From Actinomycetes bacterium (GTDB taxonomy: Bacteria > Actinomycetota > Acidimicrobiia > Acidimicrobiales > RAAP-2): 64,000 nucleotides of DNA. The stretch is taken from assembly GCA_021820665.1 (NCBI GenBank), contig JAKADK010000005.1, positions 1 through 64,000 on the forward strand, in the 5' to 3' direction. Each line of letters starts with the position of its first letter. Within the stretch, counting starts at the first letter, position 1. The translations under genes were made by a program, and so were the position numbers. This document shows, piece after piece, positions 2,712 through 12,867 of the stretch. Under the pieces are notes generated by a model that had not been told where the DNA came from, searched no databases, and saw only the letters and a program-made list of their open reading frames with translations.

Positions 2712-3827
2712 TCAGCCGAAGTTGGCCGCCGCGAACTGGCCGGTCTGGATGACCCCGCGTCGTTCGAGCATCACCTTCAGGTCGTGAGGGTTGCTTGCCG
2801 CCGTCATGGCATCCTTCATGTCGATGATGCCGTCGGAGAGCAGGTCGGCGAGGGACTGGTCGAAGGTCCTCATGCCGTAGTACTCCCCGTCGGCCACGAT
2901 CCCCTCGATGTCCGCCGTGAGCAGCGGGTCGACGATGGCCTGCTGGATCCGGCCGTTCACGACCATCACCTCGAGGGCAGGCACCCGGTTCTTCCCGTCC
3001 ACCGTGGGGATGAGGCGCTGACAGATGATGCCCTTCAGCGAACCGGCCAGGCTGACCCGGATCTGGTTCTGCTGGTGGGGCGGGAAGAAGTCGACGATGC
3101 GGTTGATGGTCTCCGTGGCGTTGATGGTGTGGAGCGTGGAGAACACCAGGTGGCCGGTCTCAGCGGCCGTCAGGGCGGCCGAGACCGTCTCCACGTCCCG
3201 CATCTCGCCGACCAGGATGACGTCGGGGTCCTGGCGCAGGACGACTCGCATGGCCGACCCGAAGGTGTCGGTGTCGAAGCCCACCTCGCGCTGGTCGATG
3301 GCGGCGAGGTCGTCCCGGTGGAGGTACTCGACCGGGTCCTCGATGGTGATGATGTGGCACTCCCGGGTGTGGTTGATGTGGTTGATCATCGCCGCCAGGG
3401 AGGTGCTCTTCCCCGATCCGGTCGGCCCGGTCACGAGGACGAGGCCGCGGTGCTCCTCGGCCAGGCGCCGCACGACGTCAGGGAGGCCGAGCTCACCGAT
3501 GGTGGCGGCGCTGGCCCGGACCCGGCGCATGGCCAGGGCGACCGAGGACCGCTGGTAGAAGGCGTTCACCCGGAACCGCCCGACCCCGGGGATGCTGTAG
3601 GCGAAGTCCACCTCGTGGTGCTTCCGGAACGTCTCGAGCACGCCGGGCGCCATGATCGACGCCGCCAGCTGATCGGTCTCCTCGGCGGTGAACCGGGGCT
3701 CGTCGTCGAGGGTCTTGAGGGCGCCGGCGATCCGCATGCGCGGGGGGGCGCCGGCCTTCAGGTGCAGGTCGGAGCCGTCCAGCTCGGCCAGCAAGATGAG
3801 GAGTCGATCGAGGTCGCCACTGTCCAT
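2712..3827 (-). CDS. pilT: Type IV pilus retraction ATPase PilT
   Basis: Hexameric AAA-like ATPase that drives pilus retraction at the cytoplasmic face. The 371-residue protein has the PilT N-terminal PAS-like domain, Walker A GPTGSGKSTS near residue 135, Walker B DVILVGEMRD, and the His box GHLVFSTLHT, all intact. An in-frame GTG lies two codons upstream, but ATG at 3827 is preferred because TAGAAT stands exactly 6 bases before it and no Shine-Dalgarno is visible, the layout of a leaderless message. Its upstream region shares an 18-bp element with the pilB region (3845-3862 and 7963-7980). A second PilT-type ATPase with an extra N-terminal domain is encoded at 11017-12867. Confidence 0.95.
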   Translation of the reverse strand: MDSGDLDRLLILLAELDGSDLHLKAGAPPRMRIAGALKTLDDEPRFTAEETDQLAASIMAPGVLETFRKHHEVDFAYSIPGVGRFRVNAFYQRSSVALAMRRVRASAATIGELGLPDVVRRLAEEHRGLVLVTGPTGSGKSTSLAAMINHINHTRECHIITIEDPVEYLHRDDLAAIDQREVGFDTDTFGSAMRVVLRQDPDVILVGEMRDVETVSAALTAAETGHLVFSTLHTINATETINRIVDFFPPHQQNQIRVSLAGSLKGIICQRLIPTVDGKNRVPALEVMVVNGRIQQAIVDPLLTADIEGIVADGEYYGMRTFDQSLADLLSDGIIDMKDAMTAASNPHDLKVMLERRGVIQTGQFAAANFG

Positions 3828-3833
3828 TGTCAC

Positions 3834-3926: not shown

Positions 3927-4355
3927 TCAAGACGACGACCCGGCCGCCGACGAGCCGGTGCCGGTGGACGGCGATCCGCTTCCCGACGAACCGCCGCCGG
4001 ACGCGGCGCCGGCTGTCGCCGGGGCCGTCCCTCCCGTCCCGCTGCCCGGCCCGCCGGCGTCCTTCCCTCCCGTCCCGTTGGCGCTCGAGCCAGCCCCGGC
4101 CGGCGCATCGGACGCCGGGGACGCCGCTGCAGGCGCATCGGACTCCGCGCCCGCGGTCTTCGTCGTCCCGTTCCCGGACGTGCGGCTATCGGTCTTGTAG
4201 AAGCCGCTGCCCTTGAAGACGATGCCCACGTTCCCGAACACCTTGCGGACGGAGGAGCCACAGGTCGGGCAGGCCTCGATCGGGTCGTCGTGGAAGCCCT
4301 GGACCACGTCGAAGTTCCGGGCGCACGTCGGGCAGTGGTACTCGTAGGTGGGCAC
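3927..4355 (-). CDS. FmdB-family zinc-ribbon protein
   Basis: Small putative regulatory protein of 142 residues. The N-terminal 45 residues are a FmdB/CxxC zinc ribbon with two CPTC pairs (starting MPTYEYHCPTC) followed by the usual VFKGSGFYKTD segment. The remainder is a low-complexity Gly/Ala/Ser/Thr tail, which is common in this family. The start is GTG at 4355 with GAGGA upstream. The promoter region carries a CIRCE operator (4390-4416), so heat-shock control through HrcA is likely. It is divergent from moaC. The molecular function of the family is not settled. Confidence 0.88.
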   Translation of the reverse strand: MPTYEYHCPTCARNFDVVQGFHDDPIEACPTCGSSVRKVFGNVGIVFKGSGFYKTDSRTSGNGTTKTAGAESDAPAAASPASDAPAGAGSSANGTGGKDAGGPGSGTGGTAPATAGAASGGGSSGSGSPSTGTGSSAAGSSS

Positions 4356-4389: not shown

Positions 4390-4416
4390 TTGGCAGTCTA
4401 GCGCAGGGAGTGCTAA
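4390..4416 (-). promoter_or_regulatory. CIRCE element (HrcA operator) upstream of the FmdB-family gene
   Basis: The plus strand reads TTGGCAGTC, nine bases, GAGTGCTAA. The canonical CIRCE is TTAGCACTC-N9-GAGTGCTAA, and actinobacterial copies often have TTGGCACTC on the left. The right arm is perfect and the left arm has one mismatch to the actinobacterial form. The minus-strand hexamer TAGACT (4395-4400) lies inside the element and could be the -10 box, which is how HrcA usually blocks transcription. The start codon is 35 bases downstream. Confidence 0.8.
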
Positions 4417-4509: not shown

Positions 4510-4515
4510 TACACT
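4510..4515 (+). promoter_or_regulatory. -10 hexamer upstream of moaC leader ORF
   Basis: TACACT followed by 6 bases and a GTG at 4522. This matches the leaderless layout seen at many genes in this window, here in front of a seven-codon ORF that ends on the moaC start codon. Confidence 0.5.
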
Positions 4516-4521
4516 GTCGTG

Positions 4522-4545
4522 GTGCTCGAACGGCCTCTTCCATGA
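4522..4545 (+). CDS. Possible 7-codon leader peptide coupled to moaC
   Basis: GTG at 4522 opens a frame encoding V-L-E-R-P-L-P whose TGA (4543-4545) overlaps the moaC ATG as ATGA. The TACACT box sits 6 bases before the GTG, and moaC itself has no Shine-Dalgarno. This suggests a leaderless mini-ORF that delivers terminating ribosomes to moaC. No regulatory sensing is evident in the peptide. Confidence 0.4.
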   Translation: MLERPLP

Positions 4546-5027
4546 CAGACCGAAGCCTCAGCCACCTCGACCCGCTCGGGCCGGCGCGGATGGTGGATGT
4601 CTCGCCGAAGGAGCCGACGCACCGGCGTGCCGTGGCGCGGTGCCGGGTGGCGATGCTCCCGGAGACCACGGCCAAGGTCGCCAACAACGCCATCACGAAG
4701 GGCGACGTGCTGGGGGCCGCCCGGGTAGCCGGTATCCAGGCGGCCAAGCGAACCGCCGACCTCGTGCCGATGTGCCACCCGCTCCTCGTCGGGGCGGTGA
4801 ACGTCGACTTCACCATCGGCGACGACTACGTCGAGGTGGAGGCGAAAGTGGAGACGGTGGACCGGACCGGGGTGGAGATGGAGGCCATGACGGCGTGCGC
4901 CGTGGCCGCGCTCACCGTGTACGACATGTGCAAGACGGCGGACCGCACCATGGTGATCGGGCAGCTCATGCTGTGGGAGAAGACGGGCGGCAGCTCGGGG
5001 ATGTGGAAGCGCCAGCCGAACGGTTGA
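4542..5027 (+). CDS. moaC: Cyclic pyranopterin monophosphate synthase MoaC
   Basis: Second enzyme of molybdenum cofactor biosynthesis, converting 3',8-cyclo-GTP made by MoaA into cyclic pyranopterin monophosphate. The 161-residue length is standard. The start MTDRSLSHLD aligns with the family N-terminus (LSHLD...ARMVDVS), and the substrate-binding MCHPLL, RTGVEMEAMTA, YDMCKTADR and KTGGSSG motifs are all present. Earlier in-frame starts would add an unrelated extension. No other moa gene is adjacent. It is divergent from the FmdB-type gene across a region that holds a CIRCE element. Confidence 0.96.
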   Translation: MTDRSLSHLDPLGPARMVDVSPKEPTHRRAVARCRVAMLPETTAKVANNAITKGDVLGAARVAGIQAAKRTADLVPMCHPLLVGAVNVDFTIGDDYVEVEAKVETVDRTGVEMEAMTACAVAALTVYDMCKTADRTMVIGQLMLWEKTGGSSGMWKRQPNG

Positions 5028-5135: not shown

Positions 5136-6185
5136 TCAGCGCTTCAGGCGGAACCGCTTCTGTGCCCGAGCGGTGAAGAAGTCCGGGGTGATGAGGTTCT
5201 CCTCACCCCGGACGGCGGCAGAGGCGTCCTCGAACGAGGCGCTCGCGTCTCGGGTCTGCTCGACCGGTGGTCCTTCGCGCCGGTTCGAGCGCATGAGGCG
5301 CCGCTTGGGCGGGGGGGACGATGACGTGGCCAGCACGTCGTTCATCATCTCCGCCTGCGAGGCGTAATCGACCCCGGCCGGGGACGAGGGCACTGCCACG
5401 GAAGGGACGGCCACGCTGGGCACCGCGGCCGCGGGCGGAAGGTGTGGCGACGGCGCGGTCGGTGGTGCAGGTTGGACGACAGCGGAGGGGGGAAGGGTCG
5501 ATCCCGCCGGCTGCATCCGGCTCGCCGGTGGTGGTGGTGGCGGTGGCGGTGGTGCGAGCTGGCCCGGGACGGACGGTGCGGCGGGCGGCGGCGGAGGTGG
5601 CGGAGGTGGCGGTGCGAGCTGGCCTGGGACGGACAGTGCGGCGGGAGGCGGCGCGACCGATGTCATCTGCGGCGCCTGGTGGGCGGCCACGGGCGGCGAG
5701 GGTATCCCGAAGTTCCCGACCGGGACGTCGCTCAGGAGCTGGGGCACGAAGAACAGCGGTTCGGGGACGTCGGCAGCCGTGCGTCCGGCCATGGGCCCCG
5801 GCCGGAACGGTGGCGACGGAGCCGACGCCGCGGTCTGGACCGGGGTCCGGAGGGGTGGAGCTCCCGGTGCGCCCGAGGCTGGTGGCGGGGGGAGGGGACG
5901 CCCGGGCGCCGCCGGCGTCGCCTGCACTGGCGCCCGGTGGAACTCGCTCCCGAGCAGCCGGTCGAGGGAGTCGCCTGGTGCCGTCAGCGGGACGGTGGCA
6001 GCCGGCGCGGCGGGGCCGGTGCCGGGCTGGGCCAGGGCGCGCAGGCGCCGGGTGAGCACCTCGAGCGACCGAGCGAGCTCCGCCTGGGCGCGGGTGATGG
6101 TCTCCAGTTCGGCGTAGAGCTCTTCAGCTGCCTGCGGTGGTACCCCGGGCTGCTGCCCCAGGGTGGTCTGCCCTTCGGTGGTCAC
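5136..6185 (-). CDS. Proline-rich low-complexity protein of unknown function
   Basis: Not recognised. From GTG at 6185, preceded by a perfect GGAGGAA 6-7 bases upstream, it encodes 349 residues. A short predicted coiled coil (about residues 20-60, with repeated Glu/Leu/Arg heptads) is followed by about 200 residues of Pro/Ala, including two poly-proline runs each preceded by SVPGQLAPPP. The basic C-terminus ends FTARAQKRFRLKR. There is no signal peptide or clear membrane segment. It lies between moaC and the prepilin-peptidase-like gene inside the pilus region, so an accessory pilus role is possible. The strong ribosome site and GC3-rich codons argue it is real. Confidence 0.7.
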   Translation of the reverse strand: MTTEGQTTLGQQPGVPPQAAEELYAELETITRAQAELARSLEVLTRRLRALAQPGTGPAAPAATVPLTAPGDSLDRLLGSEFHRAPVQATPAAPGRPLPPPPASGAPGAPPLRTPVQTAASAPSPPFRPGPMAGRTAADVPEPLFFVPQLLSDVPVGNFGIPSPPVAAHQAPQMTSVAPPPAALSVPGQLAPPPPPPPPPPAAPSVPGQLAPPPPPPPPPASRMQPAGSTLPPSAVVQPAPPTAPSPHLPPAAAVPSVAVPSVAVPSSPAGVDYASQAEMMNDVLATSSSPPPKRRLMRSNRREGPPVEQTRDASASFEDASAAVRGEENLITPDFFTARAQKRFRLKR

Positions 6186-6401
6186 CTGTTCTTCCTCCCA
6201 TCGGGCCACGCCTCCCCGTGCGCGGCACCTGGCGCTCCCCATCCCTTCGACACGTTCCAGCCCCGACTGAAGCACCCGTGGTGGGAACCGCTCCCAACGC
6301 GCGCCCGAAGGCTATCCGACCACGTGGCGGGGACCCGGAACCTGGCTCCCCGTGGTCGTGGCCCGACCCTGTCGAGGTCCGACGCTGGGAGGGAAGGAGG
6401 C

Positions 6402-8164: not shown

Positions 8165-8168
8165 ATGA
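8028..8168 (+). CDS. Possible 46-residue leader ORF overlapping the pilB start
   Basis: GTG at 8028 with AGGAAAG about 8 bases upstream opens a frame of 46 codons, rich in Asp, Arg, Gly and Ser, that stops at TGA 8166-8168 and overlaps the pilB ATG as ATGA. PilB has no ribosome site of its own, so translation may be coupled. The peptide itself has no recognisable feature and could be chance. Confidence 0.35.
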   Translation: MDGNTVDRGFGRGDDGEGSAGKDAVPSSRKKDPRSMSFTSVPMVSP

Positions 8169-11020
8169 GCGATGTCGACGCCGTTCGATTCATGGCCAGC
8201 GAGCACGATCTCGAGTTCGTCGACCTCGAGAGCTACAACGTCGACCAGGCGGCAGCGGACATCCTCCCCGAGGAGCTGGCGAGGCGTCACCACGCGGTGG
8301 CGGTGAAGCGGAAGTTCGGGACGCCCGTCATCGCACTCGCCGACCCCGACGATGTCTTCGCCGTCGACGCGCTGCGCGCCGCCATCGGGCGGGAGTTCAT
8401 CATGGTGGTCGCACTTTCCGAACAGATCGATGCCACCATCGACCGGGTCTATGGCGGCCCGCCCGCCACCGGAGTCCCGGCGGGGACGTCGGTGGCGGGC
8501 TCCGCGTCCTTTCCCGGTGTGGAAGCGCCGGAAGGAGACGACGGCTCCGAGGAACTGGACGACACGCTCGGGCTGTCGCTGTTCGGATCCGCGTTCGCCC
8601 CACCGGCCGGCGGAGACGACGGGTTCGGCCCACCCGCCGGGTTCGCCGCTCCCGGCGAAGCGTCGACGGGCTGGCAGGACATGATGGCCACGCCACTCCT
8701 CCCTGAGCCTCCGCCTCCGGTCGACCCCACCTCGTACGAGGTGTTCCCTCCCTCGCCGTCGGTGCCGTCGTACGGCGACGCGGCGGGGATCGCCGGGATG
8801 GGGTCGCTGCCGGGCATGGCGGCGGACGGGCTCGGGCTCGCCGGTCGAGATCCAGACAGCGGGCTCGCCGCCGTATCCCCTGCCGCCGTACCCCCTGCCG
8901 CCATACCGCCCATTCCCGACCCGGACCCTGCCGGCCCCGGAGGTTTCGGTTCCGCCCTCGCCGATCCTGGGGTCGTCGAACCGGGGGCGTCCGAGCCCGT
9001 CGTCGACTCTCCGGGCGCTGCCGAAGCGGTGGCCCTTGACCCCGAGGTGGCCGAGCTCGGCTTGGCGCGGGCCGCTGCCGAGCTGGTCGATCCGGCGGCG
9101 GGCACCGAGCCCCCGTCCCCCGCCCTTCCCGTTCCCGAGACCTCCTCTCCGATCGGCGACCTGGACGCGCTGGCGGCGATCACCTCTCCCGCGCCGCCCG
9201 GTACGGGAGAGGACGGGGTCGATTCGGTCGTCCTCACGGCCGACCTGGTCGACGAGGCGGTCGCGACCTTCGAAGGGCAGCACCCCGAAGGATCTCTGGA
9301 AGCGGCCAACCCGGCGGCGGGAGCACTGTCGGCCATGCCGGCGCTGGCTCGCGCGCTGGTCGAGGGCGACCGGGTCTCGATCGAGGAGATGGAGGCCGTG
9401 CTCGACGAGCACCACCGGTCGGGACAGAGCATCGCCAGGATCCTGACGGCCCGGCGGTTGGTGACGGAGGCCGACCTCATGTGGGGCATGGCCCAGGAGA
9501 TGGGCCTCGAGTTCGTCGACCTCGACGTCGTGGGCGTGAACATGGCGACGGCCGGCCTCCTCCCTGCCGCCACCGCCCGGCACCACAACGTCCTCGTGAT
9601 CGGCTACGAGCAGGGCGTCCCGGTGGTGGCGGCATCGAACCCCACCGACGTCTTCGCCATGGACGACCTCCGGACCATCATGGGCCGGAGCTTCATCACG
9701 GTGGTGGCCACCCGATCCCAGCTCGAGACGTACATCAGCCGGAGCTACCAGGGTGGTGGCGACGCTGCCGACATGGCGGTCGTGGCGTCTGCCGACTTCG
9801 ACGAGTCGGGGCCCGGCACGGCGGTCCAGGACATCGAGGCCGCCACTGACGACGCGCCGATCGTCCGTTACGTCAACCTGCTGATCCTCCAGGCCCTGAA
9901 CGAGCGGGCGTCGGACATCCACGTCGAGCCGACGGCCAGCGACCTGAGGATCCGGTACCGGATCGACGGGGTCCTCCACGACGTGTCCACCGCTCCCCGC
10001 TCGATCGCCTCGGCCGTGACGACCCGCCTGAAGGTCATGGCCGACATGAACATCGCCGAGCACCGGATCCCCCAGGACGGCCGGATCTCGCTCAACGTTG
10101 GGACCAAGGGCATCGACCTCCGTATGGCGACGCTGCCCACCATCCACGGTGAGAAGATCGTCATGCGGGTGCTCGACAAGTCGAGTGTCGTCCTCGGTTT
10201 CAGCGATCTCGGCTTCGACGACGACCTCCTCGCCGCCTATGAGGAGATCTACACGAAGCCCTACGGCACGATCCTCGTGACGGGACCGACGGGGTCGGGG
10301 AAGTCCACCACTCTCTACACCACCCTGACGGCTCTCAATGCCCCGGAGAAGAACATCATCACGGTCGAGGACCCGGTCGAGCTCCAGATCCAGGGCATCA
10401 ACCAGGTCCAGCTGAATGTCAAGGCGGGCCTGACCTTCGCCTCGGCGCTGAAGTCCATCCTCCGTTCCGACCCCGACATCGTGCTCGTCGGCGAGATCCG
10501 GGACAAGGAGACGGCCATCATCGCCATCGAGGCGTCCCTCACCGGTCACCTCGTGCTCGCCACCCTCCACACCAACAGCGCGGCCTCGACGCCGATGCGG
10601 CTGGTCGAGATGGGACTGGAGCCGTTCATGGTGACGTCGTCGCTCTCGGCGGTCGTGGCCCAGCGGCTGGCCCGTCGCCTCTGCGTGCACTGCAAGGAGG
10701 CCTACGACCCCGAGGAGATCGAGTTCGTGGCCGCCGGCTGGAGCATGGAGGAGGTGGAGCGCGCCGGGGGGGCCACCAAGCTCTACCGGGCGATCGGGTG
10801 CTCGGCCTGCTCCAACACCGGGTACAAGGGGCGCAAGGCGCTCGTCGAGCTGATGCCGATGACCGAGGAGATCGAACGGCTGATCATCGAAGGGGGATCC
10901 GTGGACGAGATTCATCGACTGGCCGTGGCCCAGGGCATGGTCACGCTCCGCCAGAGCGGGTTGCGCAAAGCCATGGAGGGTGAGACCACCCTCGAAGAGG
11001 TGCTGCGGGTGGTCGCATGA
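8165..11020 (+). CDS. pilB: Type IV pilus extension ATPase PilB
   Basis: Cytoplasmic ATPase that powers pilin polymerisation with PilC. The 951-residue protein is longer than usual (about 560). It has a partial GspE/MshE-type N-domain (residues 1-95), about 280 residues of Pro/Ala/Asp-rich linker, and a second, fuller GspE N-domain (about 390-540). The ATPase domain follows, with Walker A GPTGSGKSTTL near 706, Walker B DPDIVLVGEIRD near 770 and His box GHLVLATLHT. A four-cysteine zinc module (CVHC near 840, CSAC near 879) ends it. These N-domains can bind cyclic-di-GMP in other bacteria; binding here is untested. It overlaps the next gene by ATGA. Confidence 0.95.
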   Translation: MSDVDAVRFMASEHDLEFVDLESYNVDQAAADILPEELARRHHAVAVKRKFGTPVIALADPDDVFAVDALRAAIGREFIMVVALSEQIDATIDRVYGGPPATGVPAGTSVAGSASFPGVEAPEGDDGSEELDDTLGLSLFGSAFAPPAGGDDGFGPPAGFAAPGEASTGWQDMMATPLLPEPPPPVDPTSYEVFPPSPSVPSYGDAAGIAGMGSLPGMAADGLGLAGRDPDSGLAAVSPAAVPPAAIPPIPDPDPAGPGGFGSALADPGVVEPGASEPVVDSPGAAEAVALDPEVAELGLARAAAELVDPAAGTEPPSPALPVPETSSPIGDLDALAAITSPAPPGTGEDGVDSVVLTADLVDEAVATFEGQHPEGSLEAANPAAGALSAMPALARALVEGDRVSIEEMEAVLDEHHRSGQSIARILTARRLVTEADLMWGMAQEMGLEFVDLDVVGVNMATAGLLPAATARHHNVLVIGYEQGVPVVAASNPTDVFAMDDLRTIMGRSFITVVATRSQLETYISRSYQGGGDAADMAVVASADFDESGPGTAVQDIEAATDDAPIVRYVNLLILQALNERASDIHVEPTASDLRIRYRIDGVLHDVSTAPRSIASAVTTRLKVMADMNIAEHRIPQDGRISLNVGTKGIDLRMATLPTIHGEKIVMRVLDKSSVVLGFSDLGFDDDLLAAYEEIYTKPYGTILVTGPTGSGKSTTLYTTLTALNAPEKNIITVEDPVELQIQGINQVQLNVKAGLTFASALKSILRSDPDIVLVGEIRDKETAIIAIEASLTGHLVLATLHTNSAASTPMRLVEMGLEPFMVTSSLSAVVAQRLARRLCVHCKEAYDPEEIEFVAAGWSMEEVERAGGATKLYRAIGCSACSNTGYKGRKALVELMPMTEEIERLIIEGGSVDEIHRLAVAQGMVTLRQSGLRKAMEGETTLEEVLRVVA

Positions 11021-12867
11021 GCCCGGTCTCGATGGCCAACCGCTCGGAGTGGTCTCAGCGGCTGGCCCAGTCCCTGGTGTCGGGCGGGTACGCCACGTCG
11101 GCGGTGCTCGATCCACTCCTGGCCGAGGCCCAGGCGAGCGGCCAGTCGCTCGGCTCGCTCCTGATCTCCCGGCAGATCACCGTCCCCAACGTCGTCGTGG
11201 GGACACTGGCCCAGGCGTCCCAGCTCCCTGCCGTCGACCTCTCCGCCGTCCCGTTGGACCCGAACGCTCGCGGCGCGGTCCCTCCGGGTGTGGCCCAGGA
11301 GTACGGGATCGTCGGCCTGCGGGTGGACGGCAACCAGCTGGCGGTGGCGTTCGGTGAGCCGCCGACGCCTGAGGACGTCCGGGCGCTCTCGGCCATCGTC
11401 GGCTACCGGGTCAACCCGGTCATCGCCGATCCGATCATGATCCAGCACCTCGTGGCCGCTGACGTGGCTGCCGCCGCCGGCACGGCGCTCTCCGAGGGCG
11501 AGCCGGCCCCGGGCGGGCTCGCCCAGGGGTACGTCTCCGACGATCGCTCCGGCAACGGGCATGCCGGCAGCGGGTACGCCGCGAACGGCTCCGGCTACGG
11601 CTCCGGCAACGGCCACTCGGGCAGCGGCAACGGCAACGGCCACTCGGGCAGCGGCAACGGCAACGGCCACTCGGGCAGCGGCAACGGCAACGGCCACTCG
11701 GGCAGCGGCAACGGCAACGGCAACGGCCACTCGGCCGTCGCCACCCAGGCGAGCCGCCCGCCCGCCTCTCAGCTCGCCGCGGAACCCGCCGCCCCGGAGA
11801 GCGCCCCGCTCCACATCGACGACCTGCTTCGCTACGCCGTCTCGGTCGGCGCGTCCGACCTCCACCTGACCGCCCAGATGCCGGCGTGCATCCGGCTCCA
11901 CGGTGCCGTCCGCCCCATCGAGGGCTGCCCGAAGCTGTCGAACGAGACCATCCGCGAGATGGTGTTCGGGATCCTGCCCGCGTCGCAGCGGGAACGCTTC
12001 GAGGCCGAACGCGAGCTCGACACGTCCCACTCGATCGCCGGCGTCGGGCGGTTCCGGGTCAACGTGTCGTTGCAGCGAGGCACGGTGGCAGCGGCCCTCC
12101 GGCCCATCCCCCACGAGATGCCCCTCTTCGAGAGCCTGGGGATCCCCGACTCCATCCGGGCCTTCACCGACCTGCGTCGCGGGCTCGTGCTCGTCACCGG
12201 CCCGACCGGGTCGGGCAAGTCGACGACCCTGGCGTCCATGGTGGACATCATCAACCGGACGAAGCCGCTGCACATTGTGACGGTGGAGGACCCCATCGAG
12301 TTCCTCCACGAGCACAAGCGGTCCATCATCGACCAGCGGGAGGTTGGCGAGGACACCTTCTCGTTCGCCGAGGCGTTGCGTCGCGTGCTGCGCCAGGACC
12401 CCGACGTGATCCTGGTGGGCGAGCTCCGCGATCTCGAGACGATCTCGATGGCGCTCACGGCAGCGGAGACCGGCCACCTGGTGTTTGCCACGCTCCACAC
12501 CCAGGACGCCCCCCAGACCATCGACCGCATCATCGACGTCTTCCCGACGAACCAGCAGGAGCAGATCCGGGTGATGCTGGCCTCCACGCTGGAGGGTGTG
12601 GTGACCCAGCAGCTCATCTTGAACGCGGACGGCACCGGCCGGGTGGCGTGCTGCGAGGTGCTCGTGTGCACCTCGGGGGTGCGGAACCTGGTCCGGTCGG
12701 CGAAGACCCACCAGATCTACTCGCTCATGCAGACGGGGAGCATGTACGGGATGCAGACGATGGACCAGGGGCTGGCTCGGTTGGTCCGGGACGGGGTCAT
12801 CACCGAGAGCGTGGCCTACGACCGCTCCCGCAACGAGGACGACCTCCGCAACCACCTCAACTCGTAG
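11017..12867 (+). CDS. PilT-family ATPase with N-terminal GspE-type domain and Gly/Asn/Ser repeat linker
   Basis: A second PilT-type motor, 616 residues. Residues 5-150 resemble the MshE/GspE N-terminal domain normally found on PilB, not PilT. Residues 180-245 are a flexible linker built of four 9-residue GHSGSGNGN repeats. The PilT ATPase follows, with Walker A GPTGSGKSTT near 395, Walker B DPDVILVGELRD near 460 and His box GHLVFATLHT. It is translationally coupled to pilB (ATGA at 11017) and followed by pilC, so it belongs to the assembly operon. It may be a regulated retraction or PilU-like motor; which is not decidable from sequence. Confidence 0.9.
   Translation: MSPVSMANRSEWSQRLAQSLVSGGYATSAVLDPLLAEAQASGQSLGSLLISRQITVPNVVVGTLAQASQLPAVDLSAVPLDPNARGAVPPGVAQEYGIVGLRVDGNQLAVAFGEPPTPEDVRALSAIVGYRVNPVIADPIMIQHLVAADVAAAAGTALSEGEPAPGGLAQGYVSDDRSGNGHAGSGYAANGSGYGSGNGHSGSGNGNGHSGSGNGNGHSGSGNGNGHSGSGNGNGNGHSAVATQASRPPASQLAAEPAAPESAPLHIDDLLRYAVSVGASDLHLTAQMPACIRLHGAVRPIEGCPKLSNETIREMVFGILPASQRERFEAERELDTSHSIAGVGRFRVNVSLQRGTVAAALRPIPHEMPLFESLGIPDSIRAFTDLRRGLVLVTGPTGSGKSTTLASMVDIINRTKPLHIVTVEDPIEFLHEHKRSIIDQREVGEDTFSFAEALRRVLRQDPDVILVGELRDLETISMALTAAETGHLVFATLHTQDAPQTIDRIIDVFPTNQQEQIRVMLASTLEGVVTQQLILNADGTGRVACCEVLVCTSGVRNLVRSAKTHQIYSLMQTGSMYGMQTMDQGLARLVRDGVITESVAYDRSRNEDDLRNHLNS
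11611..11733 (+). repeat. 27-bp in-frame tandem repeat, four copies
   Basis: Near-identical 27-base units encoding GHSGSGNGN form the linker of the PilT-type ATPase. DNA-level identity between units indicates recent expansion and likely length variation between strains. Confidence 0.9.

Follow-up and report, generated by a model that had tools for sequence, protein, structure and literature searches.

The stretch of DNA analysed here (hereafter the window, 64 kb in length), which comes from an uncultured actinobacterium, raises the question of whether a gene of the FmdB family is controlled by the heat-shock repressor HrcA and whether such a control would newly connect this family to protein-folding stress, as proposed in an earlier note. 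The starting point is an inverted repeat at 4390-4416, which reads TTGGCAGTC-TAGCGCAGG-GAGTGCTAA on the + strand, i.e., two arms of 9 nt separated by a spacer of 9 nt. It agrees with the universal CIRCE consensus TTAGCACTC-N9-GAGTGCTAA at 16 of the 18 arm positions (2 mismatches), with a spacer of exactly 9 nt, and lies 34 nt from the GTG start of fmdB. No mismatch affects the right arm as read on the + strand, and the gene-proximal arm (the right one in gene orientation) carries a transversion from C to G that could weaken the binding of HrcA to this operator. It is the sole match with at most 3 mismatches in the 64-kb window, and the number expected by chance is 0 (100 dinucleotide shuffles of the window). 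The sequence bears out the 9/9/9 architecture and the perfect + strand right arm described earlier; the single mismatch reported for the actinobacterial left arm holds against the TTRGCACTC form and becomes two against the universal consensus. The presence of a CIRCE in front of fmdB is therefore confirmed. No RNA family was found within the window.

Table 1. Features of the fmdB locus in the window, and other genes of the same genome that are preceded by a CIRCE
Feature	Position or locus	Strand	Details
pilT (type IV pilus ATPase)	2712..3833	-	TIGR01420, 441 bits; downstream of fmdB, same strand
fmdB/ruc-type gene	3927..4355	-	142 aa, GTG start
Likely ribosome-binding site GAGAGGAA	4364..4371	-	8 nt before GTG; read from sequence
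CIRCE operator	4390..4416	- (gene orientation)	TTAGCACTC-CCTGCGCTA-GACTGCCAA
Predicted -10 box TAGACT	4395..4400	-	spacer end (two bases, TA) followed by GACT from the gene-proximal arm
Predicted separate moaC -10 box TACACT	4510..4515	+	inferred from sequence
moaC, divergent neighbour of fmdB	4542..5027	+	PF01967, 178 bits
CIRCE before hrcA-dnaJ	L001		Pfam
CIRCE before hsp20	L002		Pfam
CIRCE before hsp20	L003		Pfam
CIRCE before groES then groEL	L004		Pfam
CIRCE before second groEL (groEL2)	L005		Pfam

The product of the gene matches the models TIGR02605 ('FmdB family zinc ribbon protein', 67 bits) and PF09723 (57 bits) over its first 51 residues, and the gene, present in single copy, encodes the sole member of this family in the genome. 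Its zinc ribbon takes up about 50 aa at the N-terminus, shows the CxxC-N17-CxxC arrangement of FmdB/Ruc proteins (C8, C11, C29 and C32) and is followed by a C-terminal tail of about 85 aa that appears, by inspection, to be of low complexity and rich in Gly, Ser, Ala and Thr. No close relative with a solved structure was found at E 0.01. A TAGAAT box just before the start of pilT suggests that this downstream gene has a promoter of its own. The pilT-family gene appears to be part of a type IV pilus ATPase set that also includes the ATPase-like frames 8165-11020 and 11017-12867, the latter bearing a tract of GHSGSGNGN-type repeats in its N-terminal half. Between moaC and these pilus genes, 5136-6275 on the - strand encodes a predicted 379-aa protein with proline runs and without any Pfam match.

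A protein of this type has already been studied in Mycobacterium tuberculosis. HrcA directly represses rv0991c, also called ruc, in this species (PMC7448276), its operator there being attributed to Stewart 2002 as cited in Becker 2020 (PMC7448276). Little Ruc is present at 37 °C, whereas the protein accumulates at 45 °C or when hrcA is mutated (PMC7448276). The gene is also activated by SigH, whose site overlaps that of HrcA (PMC7448276) and on which the dependence of the gene has been measured (PMC4803200). In its reduced form the protein binds zinc, and oxidation turns it into a holdase that works with DnaK; its cysteines were mutated pairwise as C8S,C11S and C29S,C32S (PMC7448276). More broadly, the HrcA targets of M. 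tuberculosis are groEL2, groES-groEL1, rv0991c-rv0990c and hrcA-dnaJ2 (PMC8557902).

The gene of the window resembles ruc in the four cysteines, which occupy the same positions, in the CIRCE placed close to the start codon, in its predicted co-regulation with groE genes and apparently also in a hydrophilic low-complexity tail. However, this tail, at about 85 residues, exceeds the 7-61 residues reported for Ruc homologues (PMC7448276), and fmdB is followed by pilT whereas rv0991c forms an operon with rv0990c. By analogy with Ruc, the four cysteines may bind zinc and work as an oxidation switch comparable to that of Hsp33, a protein unrelated to Ruc in sequence (PMC7448276). It should be stressed that the Ruc paper (PMC7448276) never uses the word FmdB and that no paper mentioning both FmdB and HrcA was found in the literature searched, which is why the link between them looked new; the earlier note probably overlooked Ruc for the first of these reasons. 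The link of the FmdB family to protein-folding stress proposed there is already known, having been published for Ruc (PMC7448276, PMC8557902).

The genome that carries the window (3.2 Mb in 173 contigs, 93.9% complete) contains 7 CIRCE sites at no more than 3 mismatches, against 0 for the backwards control pattern. It encodes HrcA (C57; PF01628, 146 bits), and hrcA has a CIRCE of its own at the hrcA-dnaJ site. In addition to the fmdB operator, there are five other clear sites (Table 1), every one of which precedes proteostasis genes, as confirmed with Pfam; the seventh site, with 3 mismatches at C132:3697, was considered as a further operator and set aside, as it falls within a frame of L065 that is predicted to be coding. 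The presence of hrcA and of the same operator before groES-groEL and groEL2, two points that the earlier note had suggested checking, is thus established. At the family level, hrcA was found in 57 of the 61 genomes and in all 39 of those with at least 90% completeness and at most 5% contamination. The two hsp20 sites (1501-1527 in both L002 and L003) may have a promoter layout that sets them apart from the fmdB and groES operators of this genome: there, CIRCE could supply a -35 box (TTAGCA) and run into a -10 box (TAACAT or TAATAT) with a spacing of 18 nt. Beside groEL2, a small frame (L005:1675-2091, - strand) located downstream of a threonine synthase-like gene resembles, by eye, a MoaD/ThiS-type sulfur carrier and begins with a repeated PDTPAA tract.

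The operator is also conserved in front of fmdB. A 58-aa query retrieved fmdB from 55 of the 61 family genomes, and scanning 57 upstream regions of 300 nt each revealed a CIRCE with 0-3 mismatches before 48 of them (0 mismatches in 10 loci, 1 in 27, 2 in 9 and 3 in 2). Among the remaining loci, none had 4 mismatches and nine had at least 5, the backwards control never giving fewer than 6. The idea that the repeat of the window is a functionless product of chance could draw on its imperfect arm and on the retention of fmdB without CIRCE in genera g10 and g15, as well as in two genomes of g7. Nevertheless, it is refuted by conservation and can be considered most improbable: none is expected in the shuffles, the control pattern is absent genome-wide, and the arms are kept before 48 of the 57 orthologues despite varying spacers. 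Outside the family, a sample of the phylum showed a CIRCE before fmdB in 18 of 80 loci, a count from which eight loci are excluded because the regular expression did not recognise their FmdB start. Among named relatives, it was found in 56 of the best 80 hits (the top-scoring ones, not a random sample), including Mycobacterium, Mycolicibacterium, Rhodococcus, Nocardia, Tsukamurella, Gordonia, Frankia, Micromonospora, Salinispora, Nocardioides and others; the nearest named relatives of the window gene belong to Acidimicrobiaceae MAGs. The connection between HrcA and fmdB thus recurs widely across Actinomycetota, which adds to what was known from M. tuberculosis, and the search for CIRCE before FmdB homologues of related taxa that had been suggested gives a positive answer. 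Since the existence of CIRCE, of HrcA and of an FmdB-type gene is established and the operator is conserved, control of fmdB by HrcA is very likely, as previously claimed, but it is not novel. Neither an absence of hrcA nor a lack of conservation, either of which would have spoken against it, is observed. We therefore read the element, with a probability of roughly 0.9, as an ordinary CIRCE of the HrcA regulon that controls a Ruc/Rv0991c-type FmdB gene in an Acidimicrobiaceae-type actinobacterium.

The earlier note also hinted that the operator bears on the divergent gene moaC, in which case HrcA would control molybdopterin synthesis as well. Such a dual control finds an argument in the family-wide position of moaC beside fmdB. 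However, the predicted -10 box of moaC lies 93 nt away from the operator, the fmdB-moaC pair persists in genus g10 after the loss of CIRCE, and the register between CIRCE and the -10 box suits the fmdB direction alone. This extension is thus not supported, and control of moaC by HrcA appears quite unlikely. Two assemblies contain two fmdB-moaC pairs each (L017 and L038 in G035; L036 and L040 in G038), those of G035 carrying two different promoter layouts; these pairs could result from duplication or from assembly contamination.

As for the predicted promoter of fmdB, each of the 48 family loci has a sigma70-like TANNNT box that abuts or lies within CIRCE in either of two fixed registers, while the background of this motif in family upstream regions is 0.0044 per position. 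In the first register (34 loci), the box ends at or beside the first base of CIRCE. In the second one (14 loci from g1, g3, g5, g16 and g21, including the window), spacer and gene-proximal arm together form TAGACT, an invariant box next to which the first seven spacer bases vary. All 14 loci have pilT downstream; they probably belong to one clade and therefore do not represent independent events. TAGACT may be used as the -10 box of fmdB. Upstream of it, no -35 hexamer could be recognised, and a full sigma70 promoter at the window gene was rejected for this reason. This box includes the mismatched arm base of the window operator. In the same genome, the groES and groEL2 operators, which have the same consensus, show TAGAGT in the same register, whereas fmdB has TAGACT, with one arm off the palindrome; a TANNNT box can therefore form without the change from C to G.

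Mycobacterial-type loci are organised differently, with a SigH-like GGAAT-N18-GTT running into CIRCE instead of the TANNNT box of the 48 family loci. In the phylum sample, 6 loci have this arrangement, against a background of 2.7e-4 per position; they are labelled Mycobacterium-like or Streptomyces-like from genome size and sequence. Among the named relatives, a SigH/SigR-like promoter also lies at the CIRCE of fmdB in mycobacteria, Rhodococcus and Nocardia, which fits the overlap of SigH and HrcA sites published for ruc (PMC7448276). By comparison, a SigH/SigR-type GGAA(T/C)-N16-20-GTT overlapping CIRCE occurs in none of the 48 family loci. It is an even bet, in our opinion, that the HrcA-fmdB (ruc) connection is widespread in Actinomycetota but has undergone a promoter exchange, HrcA repression being combined with a SigH/SigR redox-sigma promoter in Mycobacteriales and streptomycetes, and in Acidimicrobiaceae-type bacteria with a housekeeping-type -10 box that interlocks with an fmdB-specific CIRCE weakened on one arm.

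The transversion itself, C to G at position 7 of either arm, is enriched before fmdB: in 20 genomes plus that of the window, it affects 13 of 15 fmdB sites, whereas 8 of the remaining 65 CIRCE sites have it (Fisher p 5e-8, a value that overstates independence given the relatedness of these genomes). Family-wide, 34 of the 48 fmdB sites have it, on one arm or the other, and it also occurs before fmdB in Frankia, Blastococcus, Geodermatophilus and Acidothermus. The -10 box gives no explanation for the 19 left-arm transversions of the first layout. The simplest reading of this asymmetry would be a deliberately weaker operator, allowing a higher basal level of Ruc or its induction before GroEL. 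This proposal, which would complement the HrcA-regulon reading rather than compete with it, is a tentative one and falls somewhat short of probable: besides the relatedness of the genomes, the groES and other CIRCE sites of genus g16 share the transversion, so that a change unique to fmdB was rejected. Two groES operators of g16 (L067 and L069) have a GACTGC arm with no TA preceding it.

Under the HrcA-regulon reading, HrcA bound to the inverted repeat would cover TAGACT and block RNA polymerase. Heat or misfolded proteins would lower the amount of active HrcA and lead to the induction of fmdB together with groES-groEL, groEL2, the two hsp20 genes and hrcA-dnaJ. The FmdB product would hold zinc on its four cysteines when reduced and act as a chaperone preventing aggregation when oxidised. 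HrcA binding, heat induction and chaperone activity are thus the predicted properties of the window system, and its lineage-specific promoter arrangement is a modest addition to the published work. The link between HrcA and an oxidation-activated holdase is extended from one pathogen to much of the phylum, and FmdB genes, which are usually annotated as regulators or unknowns, gain a proteostasis context. The association of the same operator with either a SigH/SigR-type or a sigma70-type promoter makes the separability of heat and redox inputs testable. If the promoter exchange is true, the oxidative input would be purely post-translational in Acidimicrobiaceae-type bacteria.
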